The position numbers were made by a program, and so were the translations under genes. 64,000 bases of DNA from positions 2,108,001-2,172,000 of the forward strand of contig NZ_CP079925.1 of NCBI RefSeq assembly GCF_019355935.1, in the 5' to 3' direction. A model generated the notes under the pieces. The model worked only from the letters and a program-made list of their open reading frames with translations, had not been told where the DNA came from and ran no database searches. Origin of the DNA: Comamonas sp. Y33R10-2 (GTDB lineage Bacteria > Pseudomonadota > Gammaproteobacteria > Burkholderiales > Burkholderiaceae_C). Below, piece by piece: positions 5,559 to 63,531 of this stretch. The first letter of the stretch is position 1; each line of letters starts with the position of its first letter.

Positions 5559-5561
5559 CGC

Positions 5562-33322: not shown

Positions 33323-33352
33323 AGATCCCCCTAACAAGTTGAGTTAAAACGA

Positions 33353-34627: not shown

Positions 34628-34656
34628 AAAAAAGGGAGCTACGTAGCTCCCTTTTT
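34628..34656. terminator. terminator after the ferredoxin reductase gene
   Basis: AAAAAAGGGAGCTAC is directly followed by its complement GTAGCTCCCTTTTT, a near-perfect palindrome with T runs on both strands. It ends the livHM-livG-livF-reductase operon on the minus strand. Confidence 0.85.
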
Positions 34657-34680
34657 CCAAACAATCCAGCCCTCGATCCA

Positions 34681-35649: not shown

Positions 35650-35659
35650 CACGCTCTCC

Positions 35660-37215: not shown

Positions 37216-37240
37216 CGCAATTTCTCCTTGTGTCTCGGGC

Positions 37241-39151: not shown

Positions 39152-39394
39152 ACATCCCCTTTTCCTACACCCAGGCCACAAGCTCTTGCAGTGACAGAGC
39201 ACGCATCTGCATCCCCGTCACCAATCAAACTGCAGCACTGTTGCAATGAAGTAAAAGCACTTCGCAGAAGCAACTCTGTGAAGTGCCTCTGCGCACCTGA
39301 TACCCCGCACTCATAGACTCCTAATGTCTATGGCATGCGCGATATCCGTTTTCCACACAAGAGGAATAGAGCAACATTCGTGCCGATTTATGTT

Positions 39395-42083: not shown

Positions 42084-42141
42084 ATCTAACTCCTTGAATT
42101 TGTGAAATACGGGGTACTTGAATAAAGGATGTGGGCGCGAA

Positions 42142-48164: not shown

Positions 48165-48259
48165 CACTGAATTGAGTGTTTCAGGCATTCGCTAAGTGGC
48201 GTTTTTTAACGCCAATTTTTATTTGCATTAACATCTTTTCATGTGCTGTATTAAGAGTC

Positions 48260-48751
48260 ATGAAAATGCAAAAAATCGAGTTCCTTCTGAGCACTTCTTT
48301 GCTCACTCCTGCGTCCAATGAGGCACTGAATTCCGGATTGCAGAGCTTCGATCAACTCATTGGTATTGACGAAGTCATGCGCATTTTGTCCGTCAAACGC
48401 ACGAGCTTGTATAAGGGTATGAAAAATGGAGTGTTCCCTGAACCCATGCGATTCAGCAAGAGGATGATTCGCTGGCGCCTGACTGATGTCATGGCTGTTG
48501 TTCGACAATCTAAGCCGTTTATTCCCAATCCCTTGGCTGCTAATGATTCGAAGGCTGTTTGTTGTGCCAGCGGCACACCAGAGCATTCGAAATCAACTCT
48601 GTATTCGAAATCAACTCTGCATTCAATTTCAGCACATAAATCGCAGCATTTGGAGAAACTGGAGGAACGCAGACTTGAACTGCTTGCTAATGTAACCTCT
48701 TCAAAATTACGCGCCAAGGTACCAATCAAACGGCATATTCCCAAGAACTGA
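48260..48751 (+). CDS. AlpA-family (excisionase-like) regulator
   Basis: The protein of about 163 residues has an AlpA/MerR-type helix-turn-helix (LIGIDEVMRILSVKRTSLYK, then GMKNGVFPEPMRFSKRMIRW). AlpA of CP4-57 activates its island's integrase and promotes excision. The protein is longer than usual (about 70 residues), with an extra N-terminal segment and a Ser/Lys-rich C-terminal tail. The ATG at 48260 is used; a GTG at 48176 would add 28 residues. Confidence 0.8.
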   Translation: MKMQKIEFLLSTSLLTPASNEALNSGLQSFDQLIGIDEVMRILSVKRTSLYKGMKNGVFPEPMRFSKRMIRWRLTDVMAVVRQSKPFIPNPLAANDSKAVCCASGTPEHSKSTLYSKSTLHSISAHKSQHLEKLEERRLELLANVTSSKLRAKVPIKRHIPKN

Positions 48752-48957: not shown

Positions 48958-50187
48958 TTACACCATGCTTTTCAACGAAATTCCTATGTCGCTCAGCTTT
49001 GACGCGGGGATCAGCGCGCCAGCTTGAACCAGCCCTTTGCCCTGAACAAAGTCTTTCATTGCATTCACACAGTCCATTGCAATTACTTTTCCTTGTTTGA
49101 GGTAGATCACCGAAAAACTTCGCTCCACAGGGTCTCCACGCATAACTGCTTCGTCATACCCCTTCGAAAGCCCTACGGTCTGCAGCTTGAGGTCGTATTG
49201 CTGAGACCAGAACCACGGAATCGCACCATAAGGCTCGAAAGTACCCGTCAAGGATCGCGCGACTGTTGTCGCCATGTCTGCAGCATTTTGGACAGATTCA
49301 ATCCGAGTTGGTGCACCATCGCACCAAATGCTGGCGTGCAAAGCTGCATCCCCTATGGCATAGATGTCTGAAAGACTGGTGCGACAGTACTCATCAACCC
49401 ACACACCATTACCACCAGCAGCTCCAGCTGCAAGCAGCGGTTCAGCGTTCGGAATAATGCCGATGCCGACAACCACGACCTCCGCTGGGATTACTTCACC
49501 ACTGCAAAGTCGAACCCCCTCAACAACATTGCTGCTGTCAAGTTCAAGCGCTTCAATCTGAACATTGAGTCTCACATCAACGCCTTGCTGCCGGTGTTGA
49601 TCCTCATAGAACATTGACAATGCTTCCCCAGCCACTCGGCTGAGCACTCGAGACCCTGACTCCAGCAGTGTCACGCGCTTTCCAAGCTTGCGCAAAACCG
49701 CTGCAGTTTCCAGCCCGACATAGCCGCCGCCCACGATGACGACACTTGACGCTGTCGGCAGCGCTGCAGCCAGATGATCTGCATCGTCACGCGTGCGAAC
49801 AGTGAAAACACCTTTGGCTTTTGCACCAGAGCAGTCGAGCGTTCTTGCACGCCCACCCGCAGCCCAGATCAAGTGCTGGTAGCGGTAGGCTGATCCATCC
49901 TCAGAAAAAACAGTGTGGGCCTGAGGATCTACGGCAGTGACCTTGCACTTGGTGACGATGTCAATTTTTCGTTCAAGCCAAAAGGCTTGCTGCCGGATTA
50001 GCAAGCGTTCAAAGGACTTTTCACCCGCCAGGTAGTCCTTGGACAGTGGAGGTCGCTCGTATGGCAGCTGGTCCTCATCCCCCAGCACCGTGATGCGGCC
50101 ATCATAGTGAGCATTGCGCAGCCCAATTGCAGCTTGCGCCCCAGAATGCCCGGCTCCAACAATCAGAATATCGGTATCAACTGTCAT
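48958..50187 (-). CDS. FAD-dependent ferredoxin reductase (putidaredoxin reductase type)
   Basis: The 409-residue protein has two Rossmann motifs: ILIVGAGHSGAQAAIGLRNA for FAD and VVIVGGGYVGLETAAVLRK for NAD(P)H. It also has YERPPLSKDYLAGE and DIYAIGDAALH. This is the glutathione reductase-type fold that feeds adrenodoxin-like ferredoxins of P450 and Rieske oxygenase systems. It starts 2 bp after the ferredoxin gene. GAGGA precedes the ATG. The likely acceptors are the two Rieske oxygenases at 56.7 and 62.2 kb. Confidence 0.93.
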   Translation of the reverse strand: MTVDTDILIVGAGHSGAQAAIGLRNAHYDGRITVLGDEDQLPYERPPLSKDYLAGEKSFERLLIRQQAFWLERKIDIVTKCKVTAVDPQAHTVFSEDGSAYRYQHLIWAAGGRARTLDCSGAKAKGVFTVRTRDDADHLAAALPTASSVVIVGGGYVGLETAAVLRKLGKRVTLLESGSRVLSRVAGEALSMFYEDQHRQQGVDVRLNVQIEALELDSSNVVEGVRLCSGEVIPAEVVVVGIGIIPNAEPLLAAGAAGGNGVWVDEYCRTSLSDIYAIGDAALHASIWCDGAPTRIESVQNAADMATTVARSLTGTFEPYGAIPWFWSQQYDLKLQTVGLSKGYDEAVMRGDPVERSFSVIYLKQGKVIAMDCVNAMKDFVQGKGLVQAGALIPASKLSDIGISLKSMV

Positions 50188-50189
50188 GC

Positions 50190-50507
50190 TCAATCCTCAG
50201 GAGCAACGGTCAAGCGCAAGCCATCCAGCGAGGCTGAGACAGGGATCTGGCATGACAGTCGTGAGCAATCCTTGCGGTGTTCCGAGGTGTCAAGAAGTTC
50301 GTTTTCGTCTTTGTTTGGCGCAGGCAATCTGTCAAGAAATGCGCTGTCTACGTAAACGTGACATGTCGCGCATGAGCAGCAGCCTCCGCAAATAGCCTGA
50401 ATTTCGTCTAGGCCGCTGTCGCGCAGCGCTTCCATGACCGAACGCCCTGGATCGGCTTGCACGGTTTTCTCAATTCCCGCTCGAGAGATGACATGAATCA
50501 GTGGCAT
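50190..50507 (-). CDS. putidaredoxin/adrenodoxin-type [2Fe-2S] ferredoxin
   Basis: The 105-residue protein has the cluster ligands in [15 protein letters not shown] and the last Cys in RLSCQIPVS. The spacing is that of putidaredoxin and of DdmB, the ferredoxin of dicamba demethylase. An additional Cys stands next to the first CxxC unit. I chose the ATG at 50507 because it gives the normal length; an upstream ATG is possible. It forms an operon with its reductase and is divergent from lysR. Confidence 0.92.
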
Positions 50508-50560
50508 GGTCAGATTTAGGCTGCTATTGAGTTGTGGTGCGTTCACTCTAGACATAGCCG

Positions 50561-50611
50561 GCGCATCTGGAAAATACATTTCAAGAATTCATGGCATCGT
50601 TTTTGCCTATG
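50561..50611. promoter_or_regulatory. 51-bp conserved promoter element, copy A (fdx/lysR)
   Basis: This segment between the ferredoxin and lysR starts matches the segment 63481-63531 upstream of the second Rieske gene at 38 of 51 positions without gaps. Shared words include GCATCTG, AAAATACATTT and ATGGCA. It contains GGCA-N7-TGCC on the minus strand, a LysR-box-like arrangement. Confidence 0.65.
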
Positions 50612-50620
50612 TGGTGTCAT

Positions 50621-51538
50621 ATGACTTATCCACAATTACGCTACACGCTTCGCCAACTCCGCTACTTTGTTGTGACAGCGGAGGTTTTGTCCTTCACGGC
50701 GGCATCAAAGGTGCTGCATATTTCGCAGCCATCGATTTCCACTTCACTGGCTGAGCTTGAATCCACTTTTGGCGTTCAGCTTTTCGTGCGGCATCATGCT
50801 GCCGGCCTATCCCTGACACAAGCTGGCCGAGATTTGCTGGGCATGGCTCGCAACCTTCTCAAAAATGCTGAAGACCTACATAGCACAGCCCGCGAAATCA
50901 ACGCAGGACTAAGCGGAACCATTGCGTTGGGTTGCATGGTTTCACTGGCGCCAGCCATGCTGCCCAAGCTCCTGTCCAAGTTCAATCTGGAGTTGCCGAA
51001 CGTCGAGTTCGATACTTTTGAAGTCGGACAGGAAGATCTGTTGCGCTGCCTGCGCGATGGAAGCCTGGATTTGGCGCTGACCTATGACTTGGCACTGGTC
51101 GAGGACATTGAGTTCACGCCATTGAGCGAATTGCAGCCCTACGCGATCCTGCCCAAGCTACACAGGCTTGCTCGCCAACCGACCGTATCCTTGGAAAGCT
51201 TGATCGAAGAGCCTTACGTTCTGCTTGATCTACCCCACAGTCGAGAATATTTCTCGTCACTTTTCGAGCCTTTGGGGCGCTTGCCCAAGCCCGCATTTCA
51301 CTCGTCACAACCGGAAGTCGTTCGAGGCATGGTTGCCAACGGACTTGGCTACAGCATCCTTAACTTTCCGCTGCGCTCGATGCAGACCGTTGATGGTGCT
51401 GAATTCGCAATTCGGCCATTCACTGAACCTGTGCGACCTCTACAACTGGGAATTGCCCGATTGGCCTGCGTTCAACCGAGACAAGTCGTCCAGCGCTTTT
51501 CAGAGTTTTGCGTGACATCGGTTCCCAAAATGCTCTGA
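50621..51538 (+). CDS. LysR-family transcriptional regulator
   Basis: The 305-residue protein has an N-terminal helix-turn-helix (LRYFVVTAEVLSFTAASKVL, HISQPSISTSLAELESTFGV, QLFVRHHAAGLSLTQAG) and a LysR substrate domain. I chose the ATG at 50621 rather than 50591, because the upstream ATG lies inside the conserved promoter element. It is divergent from the ferredoxin operon and probably responds to the island's substrate. Confidence 0.92.
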   Translation: MTYPQLRYTLRQLRYFVVTAEVLSFTAASKVLHISQPSISTSLAELESTFGVQLFVRHHAAGLSLTQAGRDLLGMARNLLKNAEDLHSTAREINAGLSGTIALGCMVSLAPAMLPKLLSKFNLELPNVEFDTFEVGQEDLLRCLRDGSLDLALTYDLALVEDIEFTPLSELQPYAILPKLHRLARQPTVSLESLIEEPYVLLDLPHSREYFSSLFEPLGRLPKPAFHSSQPEVVRGMVANGLGYSILNFPLRSMQTVDGAEFAIRPFTEPVRPLQLGIARLACVQPRQVVQRFSEFCVTSVPKML

Positions 51539-51566
51539 TCTCAAGACATAGGTTAAAGCCATGCAA

Positions 51567-51596
51567 TGCATCTTTAGAAAGTCTTTTGAAGATGCA
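51567..51596. promoter_or_regulatory. inverted repeat TGCATCTT-N14-AAGATGCA upstream of the monooxygenase
   Basis: Two perfect 8-bp arms lie 52 bp before the monooxygenase ATG. The 30-bp span equals that of TGCAT-N20-ATGCA in promoter element copy B (63482-63511), and the GCATCT word is common to both. Confidence 0.5.
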
Positions 51597-51648
51597 GCGA
51601 CGCGTCCTAGAGTGCACATCGACAGCACAGACAAGGACGATTTTCAAC

Positions 51649-52917
51649 ATGTCTATCCAAACTACCGAAGTCATCATCGTTGGCGCAGGCCAGGCCGGCG
51701 TTGCGATGAGCGAACATCTTCTTAAAGCCGGAATTCCTCATCTGGTACTTGAAAGAGCACGTATTGCCGAACGTTGGCGAACGGGGCGCTGGGATTCTCT
51801 GGTGGCCAATGGTCCAGCGTGGCATGACCGCTTCCCAGGCCTGGAGCTTCCAGGTGGTCCAGATGCCTTTGTTCCCAAGGAGCAAGTAGCGGACTATTTT
51901 GTTTCTTACGTAAAGCATCTGAACTCCCCAGTACGCTGTGGGGTAGAGGTTCAGAAAGTGACTCGTCTTGCCGGCCGTTCCGGTTTCTTGGTAGAGACCA
52001 ATAGCGGCCCATTTGAAGCGCAATACGTGGTCGCAGCAACCGGTGCCTTCCAGACGCCTGTGATCCCATCCATCGTGCCAAAGGATGCTGGCGTCACGCA
52101 ATTTCACTCTGCGCACTATCGCAATCCAGAGCAATTACCAGAAGGTGCAGTTCTTGTAGTTGGAGCCGGATCATCCGGGGTGCAGATTGCTGACGAGCTG
52201 GCGCGCTCGGGTCGAAAAGTGTACCTATCGGTCGGCCCTCATGATCGCCCCCCCCGTAGTTACCGTGGCCGTGACTTCGTATGGTGGCTGGGAGTGCTCA
52301 ACAAATGGGATGCCGAGGCCACACTAGGCGTAGAGCACACCACCATTGCCGTCAGCGGTGCGCGTGGAGGCCATACGGTGGACTTTAGACGCTTGGCTGC
52401 AGAGGGCATCACGCTCTTGGGTCGCTCCGACTCCTATGCCAACGGCAAGCTGCATTTTGCCGATGACCTGCGCACCAATATCGAGCGTGGAGATAAGAAT
52501 TACCTGTCAGTTCTCGACGAAGCTGACGCCTACGTGCAGCGCAGCGGAATCGATCTGCCACTGGAACCGCAAGCGCGCGAGTTCCTGCCGTTGCCCGAGT
52601 GTGTATTGCAACCGCTGAAGACTTTGGATCTCGGCAAAGCCGGTATTTCCACCATCCTGTGGGCGACCGGCTACGTGTCGGACTACAGCTGGTTGCCTGC
52701 GGATGCCGTGGGCACCGATGGTCGACCCAATCACCAGCGCGGTGTTGGTGGAGCGCCTGGCATTTACTTCTTGGGATTGCCCTGGCAGACGCGCCGTGGC
52801 TCGTCCTTTATTTGGGGGGTCTGGTACGACGCCAAGTACGTCGCTGATCACATCACCAAACAAAACGACTACATGACCTACCAACCCAATACACCGCAAC
52901 TTTCAACGCAAGTTTGA
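51649..52917 (+). CDS. flavin-containing monooxygenase
   Basis: The 422-residue protein has an FAD site (EVIIVGAGQAGVAMSEHLLK) and an NADPH site (AVLVVGAGSSGVQIADELAR), plus ATGAF and ILWATGY, typical of the FMO/CzcO-like family. Members oxygenate nitrogen or sulfur atoms or perform Baeyer-Villiger reactions. I chose the ATG at 51649 since the FAD motif then starts at residue 10; an in-frame upstream start would overlap lysR. It heads the operon with RidA, DUF1028 and M20 genes. Confidence 0.9.
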   Translation: MSIQTTEVIIVGAGQAGVAMSEHLLKAGIPHLVLERARIAERWRTGRWDSLVANGPAWHDRFPGLELPGGPDAFVPKEQVADYFVSYVKHLNSPVRCGVEVQKVTRLAGRSGFLVETNSGPFEAQYVVAATGAFQTPVIPSIVPKDAGVTQFHSAHYRNPEQLPEGAVLVVGAGSSGVQIADELARSGRKVYLSVGPHDRPPRSYRGRDFVWWLGVLNKWDAEATLGVEHTTIAVSGARGGHTVDFRRLAAEGITLLGRSDSYANGKLHFADDLRTNIERGDKNYLSVLDEADAYVQRSGIDLPLEPQAREFLPLPECVLQPLKTLDLGKAGISTILWATGYVSDYSWLPADAVGTDGRPNHQRGVGGAPGIYFLGLPWQTRRGSSFIWGVWYDAKYVADHITKQNDYMTYQPNTPQLSTQV

Positions 52918-52938
52918 GTCATTTTTTCGGAGTTCACC

Positions 52939-53358
52939 ATGACAACCCATACCCGCATCCGCCCTTTCAACACTCGCGAAACTTACCCCGAGCAAAAACT
53001 CGACAACGACTTATGCCAAGCAGTGGTTGCCAATAACATCGTGTTTTTGCGCGGCCAAATTGGTCAGGACCTTGATTCTCGTGAGTCGGTTGGCATCGGC
53101 GACGTTGCAGCGCAGACAGAAAAAGCAATGGCCAACATCAAGATGCTTTTGGAAGAGTCCGGAAGCGAGCTCAGCCACATCTGCAAGATCACGATTTATA
53201 TGGTTGATGTGCGTTACCGCGAAGCGGTATACAACGTTGTTGGGCACTGGCTCAAGGGTGTGTTTCCGGTTTCAACCGGCATCATCGTCTCCGCCTTGGC
53301 CCGCCCCGAGTGGTTGGTTGAGATTGATGCGACGGCTGTGATCCCAGATCAACGCTAA
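52939..53358 (+). CDS. RidA-family protein
   Basis: The 139-residue protein has VVANNIVFLRGQIGQD, SHICKITIYMVDVRYREAVY and STGIIVSALARPEWLVEIDA, with the Arg and Glu of the RidA active site. RidA proteins hydrolyse reactive enamine/imine intermediates and release ammonia; catabolic members such as RutC have dedicated substrates. Here it follows an N-oxidising type monooxygenase, which would suit imine removal. GGAG precedes the ATG. Confidence 0.9.
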   Translation: MTTHTRIRPFNTRETYPEQKLDNDLCQAVVANNIVFLRGQIGQDLDSRESVGIGDVAAQTEKAMANIKMLLEESGSELSHICKITIYMVDVRYREAVYNVVGHWLKGVFPVSTGIIVSALARPEWLVEIDATAVIPDQR

Positions 53359-53370
53359 GACGCAAGAGTT

Positions 53371-54045
53371 ATGACAATTTCTCTTGCAGGCCGCTGCGCA
53401 CGCACTGGCGCCATGGGCGGCATCATCAGCAGCTCAAGCCCTGCCGTAGCAAGTCGCTGCCTATGGGTCAGCTCTCAAGGTGTCGTGATGACTCAAAACG
53501 TCACCGACCCTGTACTCGGCATTCTAGGGATCAAGCTGCTTGAGCAGGGCTATGGAGCATCAGGCGTCATCTCCCAACTTACTTGCGCCCGACCTCACAT
53601 CGACTGGCGACAACTGGCAGCTCTTGACAGTAGTGGACAAGCGCAGACCTTCACGGGCAGTCAAGGCTTGGGCATCGCAGCCACTGCAATCGGACAAGAC
53701 TGTGTGGCTGCGGGCAATATGCTGGCCAACGAAGCTGTGCTTGAAGCAATGGTGCGCGGGTTTGAAAGCGACCCCTATGCATATATCGCTGAGCGTCTAC
53801 TCAATGCGCTTAAGTCAGGCTTGGCAGCGGGCGGTGAGGCGGGCCCTGTTCACTCAGCAGGTTTAACTGTGCATGACAGCGACCTCTGGCCCTGCGTAGA
53901 CCTGCGTATCGATTGGTCTGATTCCTCTGTCTTCGACGACCTGCAAGGGCTGTGGCAAAGGTACCAACCGCAGATGAGGGACTACGTAACCCGTGCCCGC
54001 AATCCCAAGGACGCCCCATCCTACGGAGTCCCCGGAGATCCTTAA
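53371..54045 (+). CDS. DUF1028 family protein
   Basis: The 224-residue protein shows MTISLAGRCARTGAMGGIIS, SSPAVASRCLWVSSQGVV, QNVTDPVLGILGIKLL and SAGLTVHDSDLWPCVDLRID. These are the marks of DUF1028, a putative Ntn-hydrolase-like fold without known reaction. It is often seen beside RidA and M20 peptidase genes. It starts 12 bp after ridA and is followed after 19 bp by the M20 gene. Confidence 0.85.
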   Translation: MTISLAGRCARTGAMGGIISSSSPAVASRCLWVSSQGVVMTQNVTDPVLGILGIKLLEQGYGASGVISQLTCARPHIDWRQLAALDSSGQAQTFTGSQGLGIAATAIGQDCVAAGNMLANEAVLEAMVRGFESDPYAYIAERLLNALKSGLAAGGEAGPVHSAGLTVHDSDLWPCVDLRIDWSDSSVFDDLQGLWQRYQPQMRDYVTRARNPKDAPSYGVPGDP

Positions 54046-54064
54046 CACTCAGGAGTCTGAACAC

Positions 54065-55249
54065 ATGGCCCATGCAATGCTTGCACCGATGCTCGACATC
54101 CTCGAGAAGCTCATCGGTTTTGATACTCGCAGCAGCGAATCCAACCTGCCGCTGATCGAGTATGTTCGAAGTTACCTCGCCAGCTATGGCGTCGAGTCGA
54201 CACTGATTCCCAACGCTGATGGCAACAAGGCGAACCTTTATGCGACCATCGGACCTAGCAATCGTGCGGGCCTGTGTCTGTCGGGGCACACAGACGTGGT
54301 CCCAGCTTCAGGGCAGCCATGGACTGTTCCCGCGTTCCAGATGACGCGCTCCGCGGACCGCGTCATCGGTCGAGGAACTGCAGATATGAAAGGCTTCATT
54401 GCTGCTGTACTTGTCATGGTGCCCCGCTTTATCGAGACTGCGCACGCGTGTCCCATCCACATCGCGCTCAGCTACGACGAAGAGGTCGGCTGCCTTGGGG
54501 TTCGCGGCTTGCTCACGCATCTTGTGGCAGCTCCCGTCAAACCGCTGGCTTGCATCATTGGGGAGCCCACAAGCATGCAGGTGGCCGTAGCACACAAAGG
54601 CAAGCGGGCCTATCGTTGCTGCGTACAAGGCCTTGCAGGGCATTCGTCTCTCACAAACCTCGGTGTCAATGCAGTGGACTTTGCGGCTGAGCTGACGAGT
54701 TACCTGCGCCGGACAAGCAACGAGTTACGCGAGCGTGGTGCGCGTAACGCTGCATTTGTACCCCCGTACTCGACGATCCACACAGGCAGACTGTCTGGAG
54801 GCATTGCCTTGAACGTCATTCCTGATCACGCAGAGCTGGAGTTCGAAATTCGCAATCTTCCAGATGATGACCCGGATGCCGTGGTGGACACCGTTCGCAT
54901 CTTCGCCGATCAAACCTTGGTTCCTGAGATGCGCCAGGTTCATGCGGGTAGTTCAATCAAATGGGAGCAGTTAGTCGACTACCCCGCGCTATCAGATGAC
55001 CCTGCATCCGCTTGGCTCAAGGAGCTTGCGTGCGCTGCAGCCAATAGTCCTACGACGCGAACCGTTTCGTTTGGCACGGAAGGGGGACTCTTCCAGGAGA
55101 TCGGCGTGCCAACCGTCGTGTGTGGGCCGGGTAGCATCGTACAAGCGCACAAGGCAGATGAGTACGTTACGTTGGCGCAACTCTCTCAGTGCTTGGACTT
55201 TATGGAATCGCTGGCCGCCCGGAATGGCGAAGGTAAGTTGATTCCTTAA
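54065..55249 (+). CDS. M20-family deacylase (ArgE-like)
   Basis: The 394-residue metallohydrolase has LCLSGHTDVVPASGQPW (His and Asp metal ligands), RGTADMKGFIAAVLVM (bridging Asp), SYDEEVGCLG (catalytic Glu), IIGEPTSMQVAVAHKG and the C-terminal CGPGSIVQAHKADEY. It resembles acetylornithine deacetylase and hydrolyses an N-acyl bond. The ATG has CAGGAG upstream. As the last gene of the monooxygenase operon it may cut an amide formed in the pathway; arginine synthesis is unlikely in this context. Confidence 0.9.
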   Translation: MAHAMLAPMLDILEKLIGFDTRSSESNLPLIEYVRSYLASYGVESTLIPNADGNKANLYATIGPSNRAGLCLSGHTDVVPASGQPWTVPAFQMTRSADRVIGRGTADMKGFIAAVLVMVPRFIETAHACPIHIALSYDEEVGCLGVRGLLTHLVAAPVKPLACIIGEPTSMQVAVAHKGKRAYRCCVQGLAGHSSLTNLGVNAVDFAAELTSYLRRTSNELRERGARNAAFVPPYSTIHTGRLSGGIALNVIPDHAELEFEIRNLPDDDPDAVVDTVRIFADQTLVPEMRQVHAGSSIKWEQLVDYPALSDDPASAWLKELACAAANSPTTRTVSFGTEGGLFQEIGVPTVVCGPGSIVQAHKADEYVTLAQLSQCLDFMESLAARNGEGKLIP

Positions 55250-55319
55250 TTTCCTCACCCCTTAGAGCGGTTAACACCACTCAGCAAACCGAAGGGTTGC
55301 GTTAGCGGCTCTTAGTGAA

Positions 55320-55363
55320 GCCGTCCGGTACCGCCCTCAATGGGCAGGTACCGGACGGCAATT
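55320..55363 (+). terminator. terminator of the monooxygenase operon
   Basis: A 13-bp stem GCCGTCCGGTACC/GGTACCGGACGGC is extended by GCCC/GGGC near the loop and followed by AATTTT. It lies between the convergent M20 and porin genes. Confidence 0.85.
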
Positions 55364-55376
55364 TTCATTTCGGCGT

Positions 55377-56339
55377 TCAGAATGTGTATGTCAGGCCAGC
55401 ACCGAAAGCATTGGCTGACCTGGATGGATAGACCTTGCGACCCACGTCGGCATAGACACTGGTGCGCTTCGACAGGCTGTACAGCACGCCTATGCCCATG
55501 GCCTTTTGGGCTTTCACGCCATCGACATCCACTTGACCCCAGCCAGCCCTCAACACGGTATTACCCATGGTGTAGGTTCCGCCCAAGGTCAACGACTTGG
55601 CTTTGGACAAACTGGCTTTGCTGACGTCGTAAGCACCCATCAGGGCAAAATTGCCAAAATGCCCCTTGAGCGCGAAGAAGTTGTCGGTATTACCTGCACT
55701 GTTCTTGCCATACGCATACATAGCAGCGAATTGCTTATTGCTGTATTTAACAGTCGCTGCAATAGGCTTGTTATTGTCAGCAGGCGATTTCTCGGGTGAA
55801 GCGCTCAAGTGCACCGAAAATCCACCCGCAAATTTGGGCGAATCATAGAAAACACCATTATTGAGGCGTCCATACTCTGCAGTTCCGGCGTTTCCTTTAG
55901 GGTCGGACGGGAAGTTGTAGTGCCACAAATCCCAGGCAGGAGATGCAACACGGTTGAAGTAATACCATGGGTCGAAGTCATAGTCATTACTGTAGATGGC
56001 ATCCAAGCGTCGGCCAATTTGAACTGAGCCGAAGCTGCCCTTCAAACCCACGGTGGCCTCCCCAGACCAAAACGGCTTGTTCGCACTTTCAATAGCACCA
56101 GTGCTCGTATCAAGCCGATGACTCAATGCGAAAGTGGTTGCCAGCCCGGACCCGAGGTCCTCTGAACCCCGAAAAGTAATGTTGCTTGGCTGTATCGGTC
56201 CGACCTTCCCCGCTTTGTCATAGTCTCGATAGACGCCAACATCGAGGAAGCCCGAAATTGTTACATTGGATTGAGCCTGTGATGCTGAAGCTCCTGCCAT
56301 CATGGCCATGAAGCATGCAGCACGTATCATTTTTGCCAT
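55377..56339 (-). CDS. Gram-negative general porin (Omp32-like)
   Basis: The 320-residue protein has a signal peptide (ACFMAMMAGASASQAQ), the start NVTISGFLDVGVYRDYDKAG, FRGSEDLGSGLATTFALSHR and the C-terminal GLTYTF ending in Phe, needed for outer-membrane assembly. It forms a trimeric 16-stranded barrel in comamonads and Bordetella. It lies between two operons of the island and may admit the substrate. An inverted repeat lies upstream at 56504-56524. Confidence 0.92.
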   Translation of the reverse strand: MAKMIRAACFMAMMAGASASQAQSNVTISGFLDVGVYRDYDKAGKVGPIQPSNITFRGSEDLGSGLATTFALSHRLDTSTGAIESANKPFWSGEATVGLKGSFGSVQIGRRLDAIYSNDYDFDPWYYFNRVASPAWDLWHYNFPSDPKGNAGTAEYGRLNNGVFYDSPKFAGGFSVHLSASPEKSPADNNKPIAATVKYSNKQFAAMYAYGKNSAGNTDNFFALKGHFGNFALMGAYDVSKASLSKAKSLTLGGTYTMGNTVLRAGWGQVDVDGVKAQKAMGIGVLYSLSKRTSVYADVGRKVYPSRSANAFGAGLTYTF

Positions 56340-56503
56340 ATTTATATCTCACTGGGTTGAATTTCCCGGCAGGAATTTTCATAAATCTCGCAATGTAAAA
56401 ATATGGAATTTATTTTATTAAATGCAAAATTTTTCAAAATGAGATTTTGAAATTCCCCATACCCGGTCGATAAAAAATTTTCGACCGACAGTTATGCTAT
56501 TCA

Positions 56504-56524
56504 ATGCAGATGGATATTCTGCAT
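56504..56524. promoter_or_regulatory. inverted repeat ATGCAGA-N7-TCTGCAT upstream of the porin
   Basis: Perfect 7-bp arms lie 165 bp before the porin ATG. A second stem, CGGTCGA-N10-TCGACCG, lies at 56464-56487. The TCTGCA/TGCAGA word also occurs in promoter element copy B. This leader of 230 bp is AT-rich and has no gene. Confidence 0.45.
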
Positions 56525-56570
56525 ACAGTTTTCATTGATGATTAATATATAAATCCTATGCAGATTAATT

Positions 56571-56616
56571 AAAAAATGGCGGTGCCACCGCAATATACGG
56601 TGGCACCGCCATTTTT
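56571..56616 (-). terminator. terminator of the Rieske/Pot operon
   Basis: AAATGGCGGTGCCACCG and CGGTGGCACCGCCATTT form a long perfect stem with a 7-nt loop, with A and T runs on both sides. It follows the last gene of the minus-strand operon by 45 bp. Confidence 0.9.
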
Positions 56617-56661
56617 ACTTCGACTTGATTTAATCAAACCAAATGATTAAATGAATGCCAT

Positions 56662-57819
56662 TTACTCGATGACTTGTTTTCCTATGTAGGCGTAAAAATC
56701 TCGAAGCGTGCCCTCAAGGTTGTCGCAAGCCAGAGGCCCCGGGTTATAGAACGAAGAGTGAAGCCCGGTCTGCAACGTCTCGAGTTTGGTGCGATCTTCA
56801 GCATTGAAGGCATCAGCAAATGCGACATAGCTGGCCACACTCGCCTCATCAGGTGCTTGCTCATGGCCAGCGATCCCCCAGCGAACTGCCACACTGTCGA
56901 CTGTCTTTGGCCGCAGACACAGGTAGACAGTTTGATGCGGCATGTAAGTAACGACAAGATTCGGAAATACGCTGAATAGAAAACTAAACCTGCGCTCATC
57001 GGCGCTCAGCTCAGGATGGTGTGGCGCACGCTGGGAAGAATCAGGTGTGTAGTGCGCCCGATAGGCTGAAAAATGACCATTGCCCTCCACGTACTCACAC
57101 AGCTCTGTGGGCGTTACCGGGCGCAACGTGCGAGGGTGCGTTGCGTTCAAGTGGTAGCCTTCCATGAAGTTCTCTGCGAGGCACTTCCAGTTGGTTTGCC
57201 AGACCTCCTCAGTGCTGTGATAAAGCTCACGTTCTTCATGATGGTAGTTACGGATATGAGTCTCGAGTGGCGCTAAGGACTGCGCCAAAGGTGGTGCATT
57301 GCCATCCAGATTGACAAAGATGAAGTTTTGCCAGACCGTCGTTGCAATCGTTGGCAAGGCGCAGCGTGCAGTGTCCAGAAAAGGGCTGTCCTGCATCAAC
57401 GGTGCTCGCTTGAGCTTCCCGTCAAGCTCAAAAGTCCATGCGTGGTAAGCACAAACATGTAGTTTTTTATTTCCTCGTCCGGTGGCGACGAGGTTGCCTC
57501 GATGGCGGCACACATTGGCCATCACCCTTACTTCCCCTGAACCGTCCCGCTGCACGATCAAAGGCTCGCCAGCGACGTCGGTCGTGTAGTAGTCACCCTT
57601 GGTGGGGATCTCCCCTGTATGTCCGACACACACCCAGTTGCGTCTAAACACTTTTGTTCGTTCGATTTCGGCAAACGCTGGCGATGTATAGAACTCCCCT
57701 GGCATTGCATGGGTCGCTCGTACTCCCGGGCGTGCAAGCTCTTGCAGCTTCTCCAGTAGCTGCTGATCTGCGTTAGAAATATCTTCGGATGGGAAATAAG
57801 ACATGCTGCTGTCGCTCAT
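56662..57819 (-). CDS. Rieske oxygenase alpha subunit 1 (GbcA/CntA-like)
   Basis: The 385-residue protein has Rieske ligands in NVCRHRGNLVATGRG and CAYHAWTF, and the mononuclear iron site in LAENFMEGYHLNATHPRT. The overall pattern (PGEFYTSPAFAEIERTKVF, RNWVCVGH) is that of the quaternary-ammonium oxygenases such as glycine betaine, carnitine and stachydrine demethylases. No beta subunit is present, as in that group. It starts 3 bp after potC. It is a paralogue of the oxygenase at the other end of the operon. Confidence 0.9.
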   Translation of the reverse strand: MSDSSMSYFPSEDISNADQQLLEKLQELARPGVRATHAMPGEFYTSPAFAEIERTKVFRRNWVCVGHTGEIPTKGDYYTTDVAGEPLIVQRDGSGEVRVMANVCRHRGNLVATGRGNKKLHVCAYHAWTFELDGKLKRAPLMQDSPFLDTARCALPTIATTVWQNFIFVNLDGNAPPLAQSLAPLETHIRNYHHEERELYHSTEEVWQTNWKCLAENFMEGYHLNATHPRTLRPVTPTELCEYVEGNGHFSAYRAHYTPDSSQRAPHHPELSADERRFSFLFSVFPNLVVTYMPHQTVYLCLRPKTVDSVAVRWGIAGHEQAPDEASVASYVAFADAFNAEDRTKLETLQTGLHSSFYNPGPLACDNLEGTLRDFYAYIGKQVIE

Positions 57820-57822
57820 GGA

Positions 57823-58659
57823 TCAGGTTATAGAGTTGCCATGGCCAGCTGTACGGCCACGTAACCAGTGAATTGCGCCGAACAGCGCGATGGCAAAAAC
57901 GGTCAGCATGCTGGCGACGGCGAGAATCGTAGGATCAATCGAATCCCGCATCCCGCTCCACATCTCACGTGGGATCGTGTTCTGATCAGGCCCCCCGATG
58001 AACAAGATCACAATGACCTCATCGAACGAAGTTGCAAACGCAAAGATGGCGCCAGCCGTGACAGCCGGTGAAATCAACGGCAGCGTGACACGCCGAAAAG
58101 CAGTCCAAGGCGTGGCCCCCAAGCTCGTCGCTGCACGAACGAGGTTATGGTCAAAAGACAGCAAAGATGCATTGACTGTTATGACCACAAAAGGCGTTCC
58201 CAACGCGGCATGGGATAGCACGACACCGGTGTAGGTATCGTTGAGTCCCAAGGGAGCAAATACCAAATAAAAGCCCACAGCCACAACCACCACGGGAATG
58301 ATCATTGGCGAGATCAGCAGCGGCATGATCAGCGAGCGGAAGGGGAAATTCGGTCGCGACAAACCCAAGGCAGCCAGCGTCCCCATGACTGTCGCGATCA
58401 GTGTGGAAACAACACCGATACCGACACTATTGATCAGTGCTTGCTGCCACGCGGGACTGAACAATGCCTTCTCGTACCAGCGCAACGAGAAGCCTGTCAT
58501 GGGGTACGAGAAGTACGCACTGGAATTGAAGGACAGTGGAATGATTGCGAGCAGTGGTGCAATCAAAAAAAACAACACCAACCCAGTTTGCCAATTGGCC
58601 CAGGCCAGCGAGAGTTTTGATGACAACGGACGGTTATCAATGCGATTAAGAATGGCCAT
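57823..58659 (-). CDS. PotC-type ABC transporter permease
   Basis: The 278-residue inner-membrane protein has about six membrane helices and the EAA-type loop AATSLGATPWTAFRRVTLPL. It has FSLRWYEKALFSPAWQQALI, typical of spermidine/putrescine-type permeases. GGAGGT precedes the ATG. It pairs with the PotB-type permease encoded just upstream. Confidence 0.92.
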   Translation of the reverse strand: MAILNRIDNRPLSSKLSLAWANWQTGLVLFFLIAPLLAIIPLSFNSSAYFSYPMTGFSLRWYEKALFSPAWQQALINSVGIGVVSTLIATVMGTLAALGLSRPNFPFRSLIMPLLISPMIIPVVVVAVGFYLVFAPLGLNDTYTGVVLSHAALGTPFVVITVNASLLSFDHNLVRAATSLGATPWTAFRRVTLPLISPAVTAGAIFAFATSFDEVIVILFIGGPDQNTIPREMWSGMRDSIDPTILAVASMLTVFAIALFGAIHWLRGRTAGHGNSIT

Positions 58660-58671
58660 CAGATACCTCCA

Positions 58672-59934
58672 TCAGCCCAGACGCAGGCGATCAATGCCGA
58701 CAAGTCGGTTGAAGATCAAGTAAAACGCTACGGTAAACACCAGCAAATAGGCAGACAGTGCGCCGGCGAGTCCCCAGTTAAGCATCTCATTGGTCTGTTG
58801 CGCGATCAGCTGACTGATCATCTCGTCACCTGCACCGCCGAGCAGAGCTGGCGTGATGTAGTAACCCAAAGCAATCACAAATACGAGGAAGCACCCTGCC
58901 CCTACCCCTGGCAAAGTCTGCGGCATATACACCCGGATAAAGGCGAGCACAGGGTGAGCGCCCAGTGACTGTGCTGCCCGCATGTACGTGGGAGGAACGT
59001 TCTTCATCACCGAATAAATCGCCAAAATCATGTAAGGCAGCAGCACGTGAGTCATCCCCACCAGCACGCCAATGCGGTTGAAAATTAAGGGCATGGGTTC
59101 ACTGATCATGCTTAGGCTTTGCAGTACGCTATTGACGATGCCACTCGGCTGCAGCATGACGTACCACGCAGTCACGCGCACCAGCAGCGATGTCCAGAAC
59201 GGAATAATCACTAACAGCAAAAGCTTGGCACTGCGCTCTGGCGGCAGCGTTGCCAGGCGCCACGCCACTGGATAGGCAAGCACCAAACACAGCAGCGTCA
59301 CCACGGTGCTGATCCATACGGTTCTTCCGAAAGACTGTAAATAGACGCTGCCTTGCTCATCGCCTGCAACGACTGAGCCACTGGCATCCACTTTGGCATC
59401 GACCGCTTCTAGCAGGTAGTCAGCCGTTGGAGTCCGGGTTGCCCGCTGCATCAGGCGCCATGTCTCATGCTCACCCCACCGGGCATCCAACTCAATGAGC
59501 GCAGGCTTCCATGCAGCAGGCGCTTGCTCGGGGAGACTTCGCGCCGAACGCATCAACAGGCTGCGCATGTCCGACTGGTAGAAGTTCAGGCGGCGGGAGA
59601 CGGTGCCCAACTCTCCCGCTTTAGAGGCAGCAGCCAAATCAGTGCTTAGTGCCACAAACGCCATTTCATCCGGAACACCCTGACCATCCCACACTTGGAG
59701 AACCTGCGTGAGTTGTGGCATTGACTCAGGCATCTCTGGGTTCTGCACACTTCGTGCCAACAGCATGGCAATTGGCGCGATAAAAGTTAGCAGCAAAAAG
59801 AGCAGCAACGGCAGCACGAGCAAAAACGCCTCGCGCGCTGCACGTCGTCGTGCCTGGCGATACAAGTCAACAGGGCTAACAGCAGTCATTGCAGATGCTG
59901 CAGCACTGTTGGGAGTGGATAGTTCGGGTGTCAT
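58672..59934 (-). CDS. PotB-type ABC transporter permease with a large insertion
   Basis: The 420-residue protein is about 130 residues longer than E. coli PotB. The extra part, roughly residues 65-200 (VQNPEMPESMPQLTQVLQVW to DEQGSVYLQSFGR), is soluble and lies between the first membrane helix and the core, probably in the periplasm. The core has AAQSLGAHPVLAFIRVYMPQ as EAA loop. Similar long versions occur in Burkholderiales. The insert could contact the binding protein. Confidence 0.9.
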   Translation of the reverse strand: MTPELSTPNSAAASAMTAVSPVDLYRQARRRAAREAFLLVLPLLLFLLLTFIAPIAMLLARSVQNPEMPESMPQLTQVLQVWDGQGVPDEMAFVALSTDLAAASKAGELGTVSRRLNFYQSDMRSLLMRSARSLPEQAPAAWKPALIELDARWGEHETWRLMQRATRTPTADYLLEAVDAKVDASGSVVAGDEQGSVYLQSFGRTVWISTVVTLLCLVLAYPVAWRLATLPPERSAKLLLLVIIPFWTSLLVRVTAWYVMLQPSGIVNSVLQSLSMISEPMPLIFNRIGVLVGMTHVLLPYMILAIYSVMKNVPPTYMRAAQSLGAHPVLAFIRVYMPQTLPGVGAGCFLVFVIALGYYITPALLGGAGDEMISQLIAQQTNEMLNWGLAGALSAYLLVFTVAFYLIFNRLVGIDRLRLG

Positions 59935-59966
59935 AGGCTGTCAGGCGGTTTTCAGTGCCACATCTC

Positions 59967-61019
59967 TTAGCGTGTTAGCCAGTTCTGGAACTGTTTACCG
60001 ATCGAGTCACTCTTATCAACCCAAAAACTCACATCAATCTTCAATGCGTTCTGGAAATTGCCAGGCGCAGTAGGTAGCTCCTTTAAGCGAGTTGGGTCAA
60101 TCAGTGGGATGGCGCTTGTACGGGGAGGCGCGTAGGGGATGTACTTTGTGAGGTCAGCGTAGCGCTGAGGCTGCGAGGCAAAAGCAATAAATTCCGCAGC
60201 AAGCTTTGCATTTTTGGCGCCAGCCGGTACGCCCCACCACTCATAGTCATACAGCTGCGCATCCCATACGATCTTGAAAGGCTTGCCATCTTGCTTAACA
60301 GCATCAGAGATGCGCCCGTTGTAGGCGGTAACCATGGATACCGCACCATCTGCGAGCAATTGAGGTGCTTGTGCTCCGGACTCCCACCAGACAATGCTGC
60401 TCTTGATGGAGTCCAGTTTCTTGAATGCGCGATCTATACCTTGTTGAGTAGAGAGCAGCTTATAGACTTGTTCCTTGGGCACTCCATCGGCCATCAGCGC
60501 CCATTCCAAGGTTCCCTTGGCTGATTTGCGCATACCGCGCTTTCCAGGGAATTTTTGCAGATCAAAGAAATCGCTGATCGAGTTGGGGGTTCCAGTTACT
60601 TTGGTGGAGTCATAGGCATAGACGGTTGACCAAACCATGCTGACAACCGCGCAATCACTGATAGCTCCGGGCAGAAAGTCCTTGGTATCCCCGAGAAGTT
60701 TCACAGGGAATTTCTGAAGCAGTCCTTCCTCGCAAGCGCGCATTGCATCGTTGGCTTCCAGATCCACCAAATCCCAGGTGACATTCTTGGCTTGCACCAT
60801 GGCTTGCAACTTGGCTAGACCACCGCTGTACGACTGGAAGGTGAAGTCATGCTTGGTCTTCTCGGTAAACGGTGTGAAATAAGCTTGCTTGACGGCTGCC
60901 TCGTAGGCTCCTCCGAAAGTCACAACGGCCAAGGTTTCTGCTTGCGCAGAAGCGCTAAGGCCCGCAAAAGCCGCAATCGTCAAGGCAATAGCCCGCATAG
61001 AGGGAAAGCGAATCGACAT
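59967..61019 (-). CDS. PotD-type periplasmic substrate-binding protein
   Basis: The 350-residue protein has a signal peptide (AIALTIAAFAGLSASAQA) followed by ETLAVVTFGGAYEAAVKQAY, WDLVDLEANDAMRACEEGLL and GVPAGAKNAKLAAEFIAFAS, the pattern of polyamine/opine-type binding proteins. The ligand is unknown; cationic amines are typical for the family. The ATG at 61019 has GAGGAA at 6-bp spacing. It lies between potA and potB of the same operon. Confidence 0.92.
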   Translation of the reverse strand: MSIRFPSMRAIALTIAAFAGLSASAQAETLAVVTFGGAYEAAVKQAYFTPFTEKTKHDFTFQSYSGGLAKLQAMVQAKNVTWDLVDLEANDAMRACEEGLLQKFPVKLLGDTKDFLPGAISDCAVVSMVWSTVYAYDSTKVTGTPNSISDFFDLQKFPGKRGMRKSAKGTLEWALMADGVPKEQVYKLLSTQQGIDRAFKKLDSIKSSIVWWESGAQAPQLLADGAVSMVTAYNGRISDAVKQDGKPFKIVWDAQLYDYEWWGVPAGAKNAKLAAEFIAFASQPQRYADLTKYIPYAPPRTSAIPLIDPTRLKELPTAPGNFQNALKIDVSFWVDKSDSIGKQFQNWLTR

Positions 61020-61068
61020 AGGAAATTCCTCGGTTTGTGGAAAAGGGAAATGAAGGCGTAACGCTGGT

Positions 61069-62178
61069 TTACGGAGTCGTTTCGAAGGGCTGGTGCAAGA
61101 CCTTGCAGTCTTCGGGTCGCCAGTGGGCGATGACGCTGTCGCCAATTACCGGTCGTGTGGCGTGCTGGTCGTTTGGCAGCTTTGCGACGATCTGTTGTCC
61201 GTCGGGCAAGCCCAACTCCACGCGGTAGTGGTCTCCGCAATAGATCAGCTTGTGGACTTTGGCCGTCAGGACGTTGCAGTCCGGGGTGTACTCATGACCT
61301 AAGTGAGTTCGCTCGGGCCGCAAAGCCAGTACACCCGTTCCGCTTGGTCGCAGGCCATCACTGCGTCTGCCACGCACATGTGTACCGTCAGCAAGTACGA
61401 TCGTGGCCCAGTGGTCTGACAGGTCAGCCACCTGTCCATGCAGACCATTGTTCTCACCCACAAAGTTCGCCACGAAAGCGTTGCGAGGGTTTTCGTAGAG
61501 CTCTGTGGGCGGGGCAAGCTGCTGGATATAGCCTTCCGAGAACACAGCCACACGATCAGACATGGTCAATGCTTCACCTTGGTCGTGGGTCACGTACACA
61601 ATGGTCAGGCCCAACTCGCGGTGCAGCCGCATGATTTCGTACTGCATGGTTTCGCGCAGTTGCTTGTCAAGTGCGCCCAAAGGCTCGTCCATCAGCACGA
61701 CCTTGGGTTCGAAAACCAATGCTCGTGCCAGTGCAACTCGCTGCTGCTGGCCACCTGAGAGTTGCGCTGGCCGGCGATTTGCCAAATGGCCGAGCTCCAC
61801 CATCTCCAGTGCTCGTTTGACGCGCGCCTGTTGCTCACCCTTGGGGGTATTTCTCACCGACAGTGGGAAGGCTATGTTTTGGGCGATGCTCAGGTGCGGG
61901 AACAGTGCATAGTTCTGAAACACCATCCCGATATCGCGTTGGTGCGGAGGCTTGTCATCAAGGCGTTGGCCGTCGATCAGGATGCTGCCAAGCGTTGGTG
62001 ATTCAAAGCCTGCCAACATCATCAGCGTAGTCGTCTTTCCAGAGCCGGAAGGGCCTAACAGCGAGATGAATTCTCCGCGCGCAACATCCAGATTCAAGCC
62101 TTGAACGACGTAGTGCTCACCGTCGTAAGTCTTGTCAATTTGACGAAAAGAAATAAAGGGACTGGAGACTTCAAACAT
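61069..62178 (-). CDS. PotA-type ABC transporter ATPase
   Basis: The 369-residue ATPase has Walker A LLGPSGSGKTTTLMMLAGFE, the signature RRPAQLSGGQQQRVALARAL and Walker B VVLMDEPLGALDKQ, plus a C-terminal TOBE domain (GVLALRPERTHLGHEYTPD). A strong AGGAGGAGG site precedes the ATG. It follows the second Rieske gene by 12 bp. Confidence 0.94.
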   Translation of the reverse strand: MFEVSSPFISFRQIDKTYDGEHYVVQGLNLDVARGEFISLLGPSGSGKTTTLMMLAGFESPTLGSILIDGQRLDDKPPHQRDIGMVFQNYALFPHLSIAQNIAFPLSVRNTPKGEQQARVKRALEMVELGHLANRRPAQLSGGQQQRVALARALVFEPKVVLMDEPLGALDKQLRETMQYEIMRLHRELGLTIVYVTHDQGEALTMSDRVAVFSEGYIQQLAPPTELYENPRNAFVANFVGENNGLHGQVADLSDHWATIVLADGTHVRGRRSDGLRPSGTGVLALRPERTHLGHEYTPDCNVLTAKVHKLIYCGDHYRVELGLPDGQQIVAKLPNDQHATRPVIGDSVIAHWRPEDCKVLHQPFETTP

Positions 62179-62190
62179 ACCGCCTCCTCC

Positions 62191-63387
62191 TTAGGTCGCG
62201 GATGCTTGTGAGGCAGCCAATCGCTTTGCCAAGTAGCACGCAAAGTCGTAGTTCGGACGCTCCAGTCGGTTCAACTGTCCAGGTGTTGCCAGCGGTGCTT
62301 GAACTCCGCGGAACACAGATTCGACCCCCAGACGGTCTTCTGCATTGACCTCGTCAAGCAGCTTCTTGAGTTGTGCCATGTACTCATGCGCTTTGGGATC
62401 CGCAACGAACTCGGGAGCAAGACCACCACCAAAGCGAATGTGTACCTTGTCTACGCCACGTGGTTGCAGTGACAGGTACCAGAAATAGCCTGGGGTCAGT
62501 GTGATGAGGTGCGAGGGATAGACGGCCAGCAGCGCTGTTGTTTTGCGCCAGTGACCTTGCAGCCGTTGGTTATCGGGGTGTGCAATTCCAATCGGCAGTG
62601 ATGCTTCTTTGGTAATCCAGTGATAGTTGAACGCCTCCAGACCAGGCGGGCACTCCATTTCCTCCAGTTTGGAGTGAGGGCCAACTGTTGCTCGGTGGAG
62701 CATTGGGAGGTGGTAGCTCTCCATGAAGTTTTCCGCGAGGATCTTCCAGTTGGTATTCCAAACATGCTCTTCGTAGAAGGTTTCAACGTAGTTGGACATT
62801 TCGTAAGATGCAACGAGCTTGTCCAACTCTGCCAGGCGTTCAGCTACCGGGGATGCATTCGTGTCGAGGCTGACGTACACCCAGCCTTGCCATACTTCAC
62901 AACGTACCTGTGGCAGGTTGTAGGACTCTTTGCAAAAATGTGGCTGCTCCGCCATCATTGGCGCGGCTCGTAAATCTCCGTCTAGCGTATAAGACCAAGC
63001 GTGATAAGGGCACACGATGGTTTTTGTATTACCTCGCCCTTCAAGAAGAACAGCCATTCGGTGCAAACAGACGTTTGACATTGCACTCAAGCTGCCATCA
63101 GCCTTACGGACCACGACGACTGGCTGTCCGTTGATGTCAGCTGTAACGTAGTCACCGGTTTTTGCGAAAGTGCTGGCGCGTCCAAGGCACTGCCACTCAC
63201 GACCAAAAACATCTTGCTGTTCTAGTTGGAGAAATCCGCTGGACGTATAGACCTCCGGCGGCATGGAACGAGCCTCCTCAAAAGGTAGCTTGCATGACTC
63301 GCGCAGCTTCGCAAGAGTCTTTAAACCTTCTTGCTGGATGAATCCGGCTACCTGAGGTTGGAATCGAATTTCATGAGTTTCTTGCAT
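62191..63387 (-). CDS. Rieske oxygenase alpha subunit 2 (GbcA/CntA-like)
   Basis: The 398-residue protein has Rieske ligands in NVCLHRMAVLLEGRG and CPYHAWSY and the iron site in LAENFMESYHLPMLHRATVG. PPEVYTSSGFLQLEQQDVFG and REWQCLGRA align with subunit 1, yet the two are well diverged and likely act on different substrates or steps. It is the first gene of the operon. Its promoter carries copy B of the 51-bp element shared with the ferredoxin/lysR promoter. Confidence 0.9.
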   Translation of the reverse strand: MQETHEIRFQPQVAGFIQQEGLKTLAKLRESCKLPFEEARSMPPEVYTSSGFLQLEQQDVFGREWQCLGRASTFAKTGDYVTADINGQPVVVVRKADGSLSAMSNVCLHRMAVLLEGRGNTKTIVCPYHAWSYTLDGDLRAAPMMAEQPHFCKESYNLPQVRCEVWQGWVYVSLDTNASPVAERLAELDKLVASYEMSNYVETFYEEHVWNTNWKILAENFMESYHLPMLHRATVGPHSKLEEMECPPGLEAFNYHWITKEASLPIGIAHPDNQRLQGHWRKTTALLAVYPSHLITLTPGYFWYLSLQPRGVDKVHIRFGGGLAPEFVADPKAHEYMAQLKKLLDEVNAEDRLGVESVFRGVQAPLATPGQLNRLERPNYDFACYLAKRLAASQASAT

Positions 63388-63480: not shown

Positions 63481-63531
63481 GTGCATCTGCAAAATACATT
63501 TAGAACATGCATGGCAGTGTTTGCAGCTATG
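63481..63531. promoter_or_regulatory. 51-bp conserved promoter element, copy B (Rieske/Pot operon)
   Basis: It matches 50561-50611 at 38 of 51 positions without gaps and lies 94-144 bp upstream of the Rieske gene. The part TGCAT-N20-ATGCA (63482-63511) forms an inverted repeat. It is probably the binding site of the LysR regulator. Confidence 0.65.

Follow-up and report, generated by a model that had tools for sequence, protein, structure and literature searches.

A candidate horizontally acquired three-unit regulon with Rieske oxygenases, an ABC importer and DUF1028 for the breakdown of a betaine-like zwitterion in Comamonas sp. Y33R10-2

A 64,000-nucleotide stretch of the Comamonas sp. Y33R10-2 genome (contig NZ_CP079925.1, positions 2,108,001 to 2,172,000; hereafter the window) carries two Rieske oxygenase genes, R1 and R2, on either side of a four-gene ABC importer, with genes for a ferredoxin, a ferredoxin reductase, a LysR regulator, a flavin monooxygenase (FMO), a RidA-fold protein, a DUF1028 protein and an M20 hydrolase nearby. 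We hypothesize, with a probability of about 0.55, that these genes make up the three transcription units of one catabolic regulon, acquired horizontally, which imports a betaine-like zwitterion and dismantles it oxidatively. Rieske-initiated betaine breakdown is a known kind of process; the gene set found here is unusual and compact. A wider claim, to which we give slightly less than even odds, is that the set represents an undescribed mobile aerobic pathway of Burkholderiales, Rhodobacterales and Rhizobiales for a betaine-like N-heterocycle or another N-alkyl zwitterion, in which the Rieske oxygenases would form a deep and new lineage of the quaternary-amine kind (the ENFMESYHL sequence type), the flavin monooxygenase would be interchangeable, and DUF1028 and a RidA protein that lacks its Arg would receive a first metabolic role.

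The importer operon lies on the minus strand and reads, 5' to 3', R1 (62191..63387), a potA-type ATPase gene (61069..62178; TIGR01187 over its cut-off), the substrate-binding protein (SBP) gene (59967..61019), potB- and potC-type permease genes (58672..59934, encoding 420 aa, and 57823..58659, both with family profile matches) and R2 (56662..57819), with intergenic gaps of 12, 49, 32, 12 and 3 bp. Because of these short gaps and a terminator-like hairpin directly 3' of R2 (56591-56575), the six genes are read as one tight operon, in agreement with the initial annotation, all of whose named genes are open frames at the coordinates it gave. Terminator-like hairpins in the region as a whole are not above chance (21 found, 15.2 +/- 4.8 expected), and sigma-70-type promoters are fewer than chance (1, as against 8.7 in shuffles). 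The start listed for the SBP, a TTG at 61145, comes from a mechanical extension of the frame into potA, and the probable start is the ATG at 61019, ahead of a signal-peptide-like stretch. A porin gene 322 bp beyond R2, between this operon and the LysR/FMO side, is probably transcribed separately. The remaining genes form two further groups. On the minus strand, a [2Fe-2S] ferredoxin gene (Fdx, 50190..50579; weak ISC-type match) precedes the gene for a flavin adenine dinucleotide (FAD)-dependent ferredoxin reductase (FdR, 48958..50193; Pyr_redox_2 and Reductase_C). On the plus strand, between 50591 and 55249, follow LysR (50591..51538; true start probably 50621), FMO (51508..52917; likely start 51649), RidA (52939..53358), DUF1028 (53371..54045) and an ArgE-like M20 deacylase (53993..55249; TIGR01892 and PRK07522 over cut-off). 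The window proteins have the expected motifs: CxH/CxxH of Rieske proteins, the Cys residues of the ferredoxin, the Rossmann motif and the metal motif of M20.

The three units share a 49-bp operator-like element, recognized by sequence comparison, which stands before the R1 operon (63483..63531, minus strand), before the FMO operon (51547..51595, plus strand) and in the divergent gap between Fdx and LysR (50563..50611, minus strand). Since this last copy overlaps the listed Fdx start, the true start is probably 50507 or 50555. Pairwise, the copies are equal at 35-37 of 49 positions, whereas the next best matches on both window strands reach 26-30, the score of 30 coming from a site compared with its own reverse strand. 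Across the 3.84-Mb genome, a 34-base core pattern that tolerates at most three mismatches hits these three sites and nothing else, and a reversed control has no match; the core patterns were built from the three sites themselves, with a chance expectation formed after the fact, and the fairer test is the window comparison of each 49-mer's best other matches. To follow the element in relatives, we used the R1 loci that are the best 80 of at least 588 confirmed stretches from a scan of genome contigs; these contigs are related, and all tallies are counts of loci and not of independent events. All 39 Burkholderiales loci among them have, ahead of LysR, a same-strand consensus match of at least 31 of 49 positions (ten shuffled consensuses gave 23-26). 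The match is flanked by LysR and the flavin gene in 34 of the 39 and overlaps the aligned FMO edge by at most 66 bp in four, where the window FMO query was over-extended; in the last, the contig stops before the flavin gene. A gapped form is found ahead of R1 in all six loci whose upstream stretches, cut at the CATAGG/TATAGG start, were aligned. The copy before the FMO operon contains the dyad TGCATCTT...AAGATGCA, which may fit a LysR operator. As the element stands before exactly the three transcription units, the supposedly remote ferredoxin pair and the FMO set are most likely controlled together with the importer and the oxygenases as one regulon, and the LysR protein encoded within it probably acts on all three units. 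The proposal of the initial annotation that these genes are partners of the oxygenases is thus strengthened, also by two relatives (L041 and L045) in which R1, an R2-type gene, Fdx and FdR are contiguous.

Conservation of the set is strongest in Burkholderiales, where potA, SBP, potB and potC are each present in 38 of the 39 loci, RidA and DUF1028 in 37 each, FMO in 34, M20 in 32, the alternative flavin monooxygenase gene HpaB in four and R2 in one. The other 41 loci, mostly from Alphaproteobacteria, contain DUF1028 in 20 cases, RidA in 19, M20 in 15, FMO in 14, an R2-type gene in 12, an old-yellow-enzyme-like flavoprotein gene in eight, and HpaB and this SBP in five each. The set recurs with reshuffled gene order in Caballeronia/Paraburkholderia, Paracoccus and roseobacters, and this recurrence in different orders, together with an element at exactly three units, argues for more than a chance assembly. 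FMO and HpaB are found together in none of the 80 loci, and in L006, L007, L008 and L015 HpaB and a flavin reductase stand between RidA and LysR in the place of FMO. Mutual exclusion and a common slot make the two probably equivalent, and hence flavin monooxygenation probably a defined step. R1 is also present on 24 plasmid records, 10 of which were opened; seven of these carry the downstream set (two from Paracoccus and one each from Pseudosulfitobacter, Tropicibacter, Thioclava, Caballeronia and Paraburkholderia), and three do not (L086 and, at 42-45% identity, L089 and L090).

In Comamonas sp. Y33R10-2, the gene set has apparently been acquired horizontally, because R1 is rare in the family of the host and an integrase gene lies nearby. 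Within the family, R1 was detected in one of 100 genomes, namely its own; the order and phylum samples, both of which include that genome, gave two of 300 and seven of 398, and a class sample around G579 gave 10 of 385 (E 1e-90), of which three reach at least 60% identity. A close SBP orthologue is restricted to the same two of the 300 order genomes as R1 (65% identity in G119; next relatives at most 50%), assuming that the two order samples are identical, as their handles suggest. The tyrosine integrase gene (46705..48108) and a gene for an AlpA-like regulator (48176..48751), both on the plus strand, separate the reductase gene from those that precede it. As regards a tRNA integration site, no tRNA was found in the window or in L106, a stretch of the same genome beyond the window end.

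R1 (Pfam Rieske and Ring_hydroxyl_A; predicted local distance difference test score of the model, 91.5) and R2 (Rieske family) both have a bridging glutamate and a nearby phenylalanine, Glu223 and Phe221 in R1, in which His226, His231 and Asp351 are iron ligands by motif, and Glu220 and Phe218 in R2. In an R1 alignment of 62 rows (61 of the 80 loci and the window), the bridging Glu at the position of CntA-205 is present in every row, and the residue at CntA-203 is Phe in 61 and Tyr in one; all 120 R2 homologues listed (of 685) have Glu and Phe, respectively. According to PMC7948474, the bridging Glu and an aromatic residue at CntA-203 define group V and its subgroup Va. The carnitine monooxygenase CntA is the best match of R1 both by sequence in the PDB and by fold, CntA and the stachydrine demethylase Stc2 rank above aromatic enzymes, and no beta-subunit family was found among the neighbour proteins scanned. 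Sequence and predicted fold therefore support placing R1 and R2 nearer to the betaine/carnitine group than to aromatic hydroxylases, as the initial annotation had it. R1 is 23% identical to CntA/YeaW (group Va) over the structural alignment; CntA/YeaW relies on a single flavin mononucleotide (FMN) reductase, whereas the window set lacks the Cys pair, uses a ferredoxin and an FAD reductase and includes extra downstream genes. In contrast to Stc2 and the glycine betaine enzyme GbcA (group Vb), in which the substrate-defining residue is Asn, both window oxygenases have Phe there. An identity with GbcA was rejected, the scores of R1 (130.7) and R2 (156.5) being far below the more than 670 that the equivalog NF058607 needs. 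R2 was likewise rejected as a conserved partner of R1: the R2-type matches, 11 in number and at 38-43% identity, fall into another subfamily in the four rows placed in the tree, and only two of the 80 loci have an R2 orthologue.

The importer has the ATPase and permease families of the PotABCD polyamine importer, whereas its SBP groups with gamma-aminobutyric acid (GABA)/opine receptors. These are the nearest solved chains by sequence (1e-50, as against 2e-6 for E. coli PotD) and in the fold ranking, the score against the PotD equivalog NF007048 is 30.8 bits where more than 582 are needed, and Arg236 and Glu/Asp260 are kept. Polyamine uptake was rejected in view of these relatives, and the earlier argument from a Pot-type importer to cationic amines is not supported, as the GABA/opine receptors bind zwitterions or acids. 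By analogy, the SBP ligand may belong to the same class; fold ranking does not by itself decide the ligand, profile and fold matches do not identify a substrate, and a low-confidence model stretch (215-238) hampers the comparison of the pocket. PotB (58672-59934) exceeds its E. coli counterpart by about 130 residues, its PotB match beginning only at residue 197, and the L091 permease is about as long.

Taken together, we propose that the GABA/opine-type importer would take up a small zwitterion with a carboxylate and a cationic nitrogen. R1 and R2, supplied with electrons by the FAD reductase and the ferredoxin of the regulon, would then oxidize the carbon beside a quaternary or pyridinium nitrogen, R1 performing the core step and R2 an accessory second oxidation. 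Next, the Rieske product would be oxygenated by FMO, or by HpaB and its flavin reductase in relatives, DUF1028 and the ArgE-like M20 protein would cleave by hydrolysis the amide or N-acyl bonds so formed, and an amino acid or its N-methyl form would pass into central metabolism. An N-heterocycle that is opened to an N-acyl amino acid would suit both the exchangeable flavin step and the presence of two candidate amidohydrolases. M20 scores 356.1 against TIGR01892 (acetylornithine deacetylase; cut-off 297.7), a predicted activity. DUF1028, which one source assigns to the Ntn-hydrolase superfamily, is a candidate N-terminal Thr hydrolase: Thr2, directly after Met1, is invariant in the 115 sequences aligned among 120 homologues listed. 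Its one sequence match among solved chains is 2imh, named hypothetical, and in the literature searched no paper naming DUF1028 was found. The Rut pyrimidine pathway combines a flavin monooxygenase, a RidA-fold protein and a hydrolase in a similar logic, but its enzyme families differ, the window RidA reaching 38 of 169 bits for RutC, far below the cut-off. DUF1028 relatives are found on 244 plasmid records, 105 of them from Klebsiella, and four were opened via DUF1028; two of the stretches, L099 and L101 (Klebsiella and Pantoea plasmids), combine RidA-DUF1028-argE with a Pot-type importer and genes for a flavin oxidoreductase, a quinone oxidoreductase, a glutathione S-transferase and AroQ-like and GhrA-like proteins.

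A number of observations speak against this proposal. The set is incomplete in many relatives: 15 of the 80 R1 loci lack all of FMO, HpaB, RidA, DUF1028 and M20, some on short contigs and some with full flanks (L042 and L043, the latter from a Gammaproteobacterium with R1 and the importer), and R2 orthologues are present in only two (L030 and L040). Conversely, no Rieske gene accompanies RidA-DUF1028-M20 in the stretches opened on plasmids of Klebsiella, Pantoea, Ideonella and Burkholderia pyrrocinia, so that the downstream module also serves other than Rieske products. An imine-deaminase role for RidA is doubtful, since the Arg of the three solved chains printed, at a position which we take to correspond to E. 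coli Arg105, is Ser112 in the window protein and Ser in 72 and Cys in three of 75 distinct sequences aligned, with Arg in none. With regard to the oxygenases, the Cys pair (CxxC beside the iron site) is replaced by Ser/Leu in R1 and by Gly/Leu in most R2 homologues, neither position having a Cys, and in the tree CntA and Stc2 are joined (95/95) apart from R1 and R2, with very long reference end branches (5.3-9.7). The CxxC pair is described in PMC10952381 as unique to some group V enzymes. Part of the Z differences of the SBP may stem from open versus closed forms. Finally, with regard to the putative dealkylation of the initial annotation, none of the three one-carbon genes sought (formaldehyde dehydrogenase, purU and MttB) was found beside R1 in the stretches of the 80 loci (single representative queries, at least half covered), and L119 is the sole genome in which N-methylglutamate and trimethylamine N-oxide (TMAO) genes are clear neighbours of R1.

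Four other explanations have to be weighed. The pathway may be that for homarine (N-methylpicolinate), reported in 2026, in which case the pyridinium ring would be attacked by R1 and then opened by the flavin enzyme together with the hydrolases, to give N-methylglutamate. We consider this unlikely, and it is the main risk to the novelty of the set. Homarine is a betaine-like zwitterion, roseobacter orthologues of the set exist, and an ArgE-like enzyme would suit a five-carbon N-acyl amino acid. Moreover, L119 (G559) has TMAO demethylase-like, N-methylglutamate dehydrogenase-like and N-methylglutamate synthase-like genes beside LysR-DUF1028-RidA-flavin reductase-R1-HpaB. A homarine catabolism operon, homABCDER, was reportedly described by Ferrer-Gonzalez et al. 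in 2026 and is said to involve possibly the same gene families and a zwitterionic substrate class; its name would agree with a core of five enzymes and one regulator. However, no SoxD-type gene (N-methylglutamate dehydrogenase/sarcosine oxidase subunit) is present in the Comamonas genome; all eight other R1-bearing genomes searched have one, and two congeners without R1 also lack it. Adjacency is clear in L119 alone, the 80 loci adding one weak match (29%, L053), and N-methylglutamate dehydrogenase was rejected as a general partner of R1. The involvement of Mgd in homarine catabolism, as stated in PMC13390433, which cites a 2026 study of that catabolism, also favours the homarine explanation. 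As to the earlier claim of an undescribed pathway, no paper joining at least three terms of this gene set was found in the literature searched, and the claim stands to that extent, with the homarine study as a reservation.

Somewhat less likely still is the degradation of an aliphatic amino-acid betaine (proline, hydroxyproline or histidine betaine), from which R1 and R2 would strip two N-methyl groups before the rest enters amino-acid catabolism. The contexts of R2-like genes on plasmids lean towards such substrates (13 plasmid records have R2; six were opened via R2 and three more via R1). In the near-identical L134 and L135, the R2-like gene stands beside dihydrodipicolinate synthase (DHDPS)-family, aldehyde dehydrogenase and FAD oxidase genes, which we take to be hydroxyproline catabolism genes; in L133, a Paracoccus seriniphilus plasmid and a candidate for a histidine-betaine pathway, its neighbours are a reductase gene, argE, the gene for S-(hydroxymethyl)glutathione dehydrogenase, which detoxifies formaldehyde, and a hut operon for histidine catabolism; and in L103 and L105 it stands beside MttB-family methyltransferase genes. 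In the sixth, L104, the only neighbours are more Rieske/reductase pairs and nothing points to a betaine, which counts against the main proposal. These R2-like genes are, however, only 48-54% identical to R2 (39% in L105), with no R1 annotated or matched beside them, and the scarcity of R2 orthologues at R1 loci also disfavours a paired demethylation. Plain demethylation needs no FMO, DUF1028 or M20, and the aromatic residue at CntA-203 is not the Asn of the demethylases. A CntA-like C-N cleavage of carnitine, gamma-butyrobetaine or a GABA-like acid would agree with the SBP relatives, the CntA fold match and the Phe at CntA-203, but would leave FMO, DUF1028 and M20 without a role, and R1 and R2 branch apart from CntA, albeit on long branches; we regard it as improbable. 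Least probable is that R1 and R2 are ordinary aromatic ring hydroxylases, given the invariant bridging Glu, the neighbourhood without a beta-subunit family and the ranking of CntA and Stc2 above aromatic enzymes.

The surroundings of the regulon contain several further gene groups. In L106, an insertion sequence-type transposase with rve domains (3929-4753) lies between the R1 promoter and defence-like genes. The latter begin with a DUF3584 SMC-like protein, DUF7281 and two small genes (5035-10946), an arrangement that has no PADLOC match but resembles a Wadjet-type defence operon. Further on (11828-17655), a multi-ubiquitin protein, a DUF6791/ThiF (E1-like) protein, DUF6527 and an IrrE-UvrD-PD(D/E)XK fusion are encoded in one run, a bacterial ubiquitin-like operon adjoining the catabolic island. 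The window itself has a second, unrelated-looking Rieske locus on the minus strand (32114-39202), with a VanA_C-type oxygenase (33353-34399), a DmmA/VanB-like reductase (34681-35652), a branched-chain-type ABC importer (35660-39202) and a Peripla_BP_6 receptor (32114-33337), and two adjacent overlapping PF06684 'AA_synth' genes, also on the minus strand (41499-42795).

If the proposed regulon for a betaine-like zwitterion is correct, it would link a widespread gene set, including DUF1028, to the breakdown of betaine-type compounds in soil and sea, and the small size of the regulon, with three units, would allow a direct screen for its inducer. Quaternary-amine Rieske chemistry would moreover reach beyond the characterized CntA/Stc2 branch into a separate lineage.

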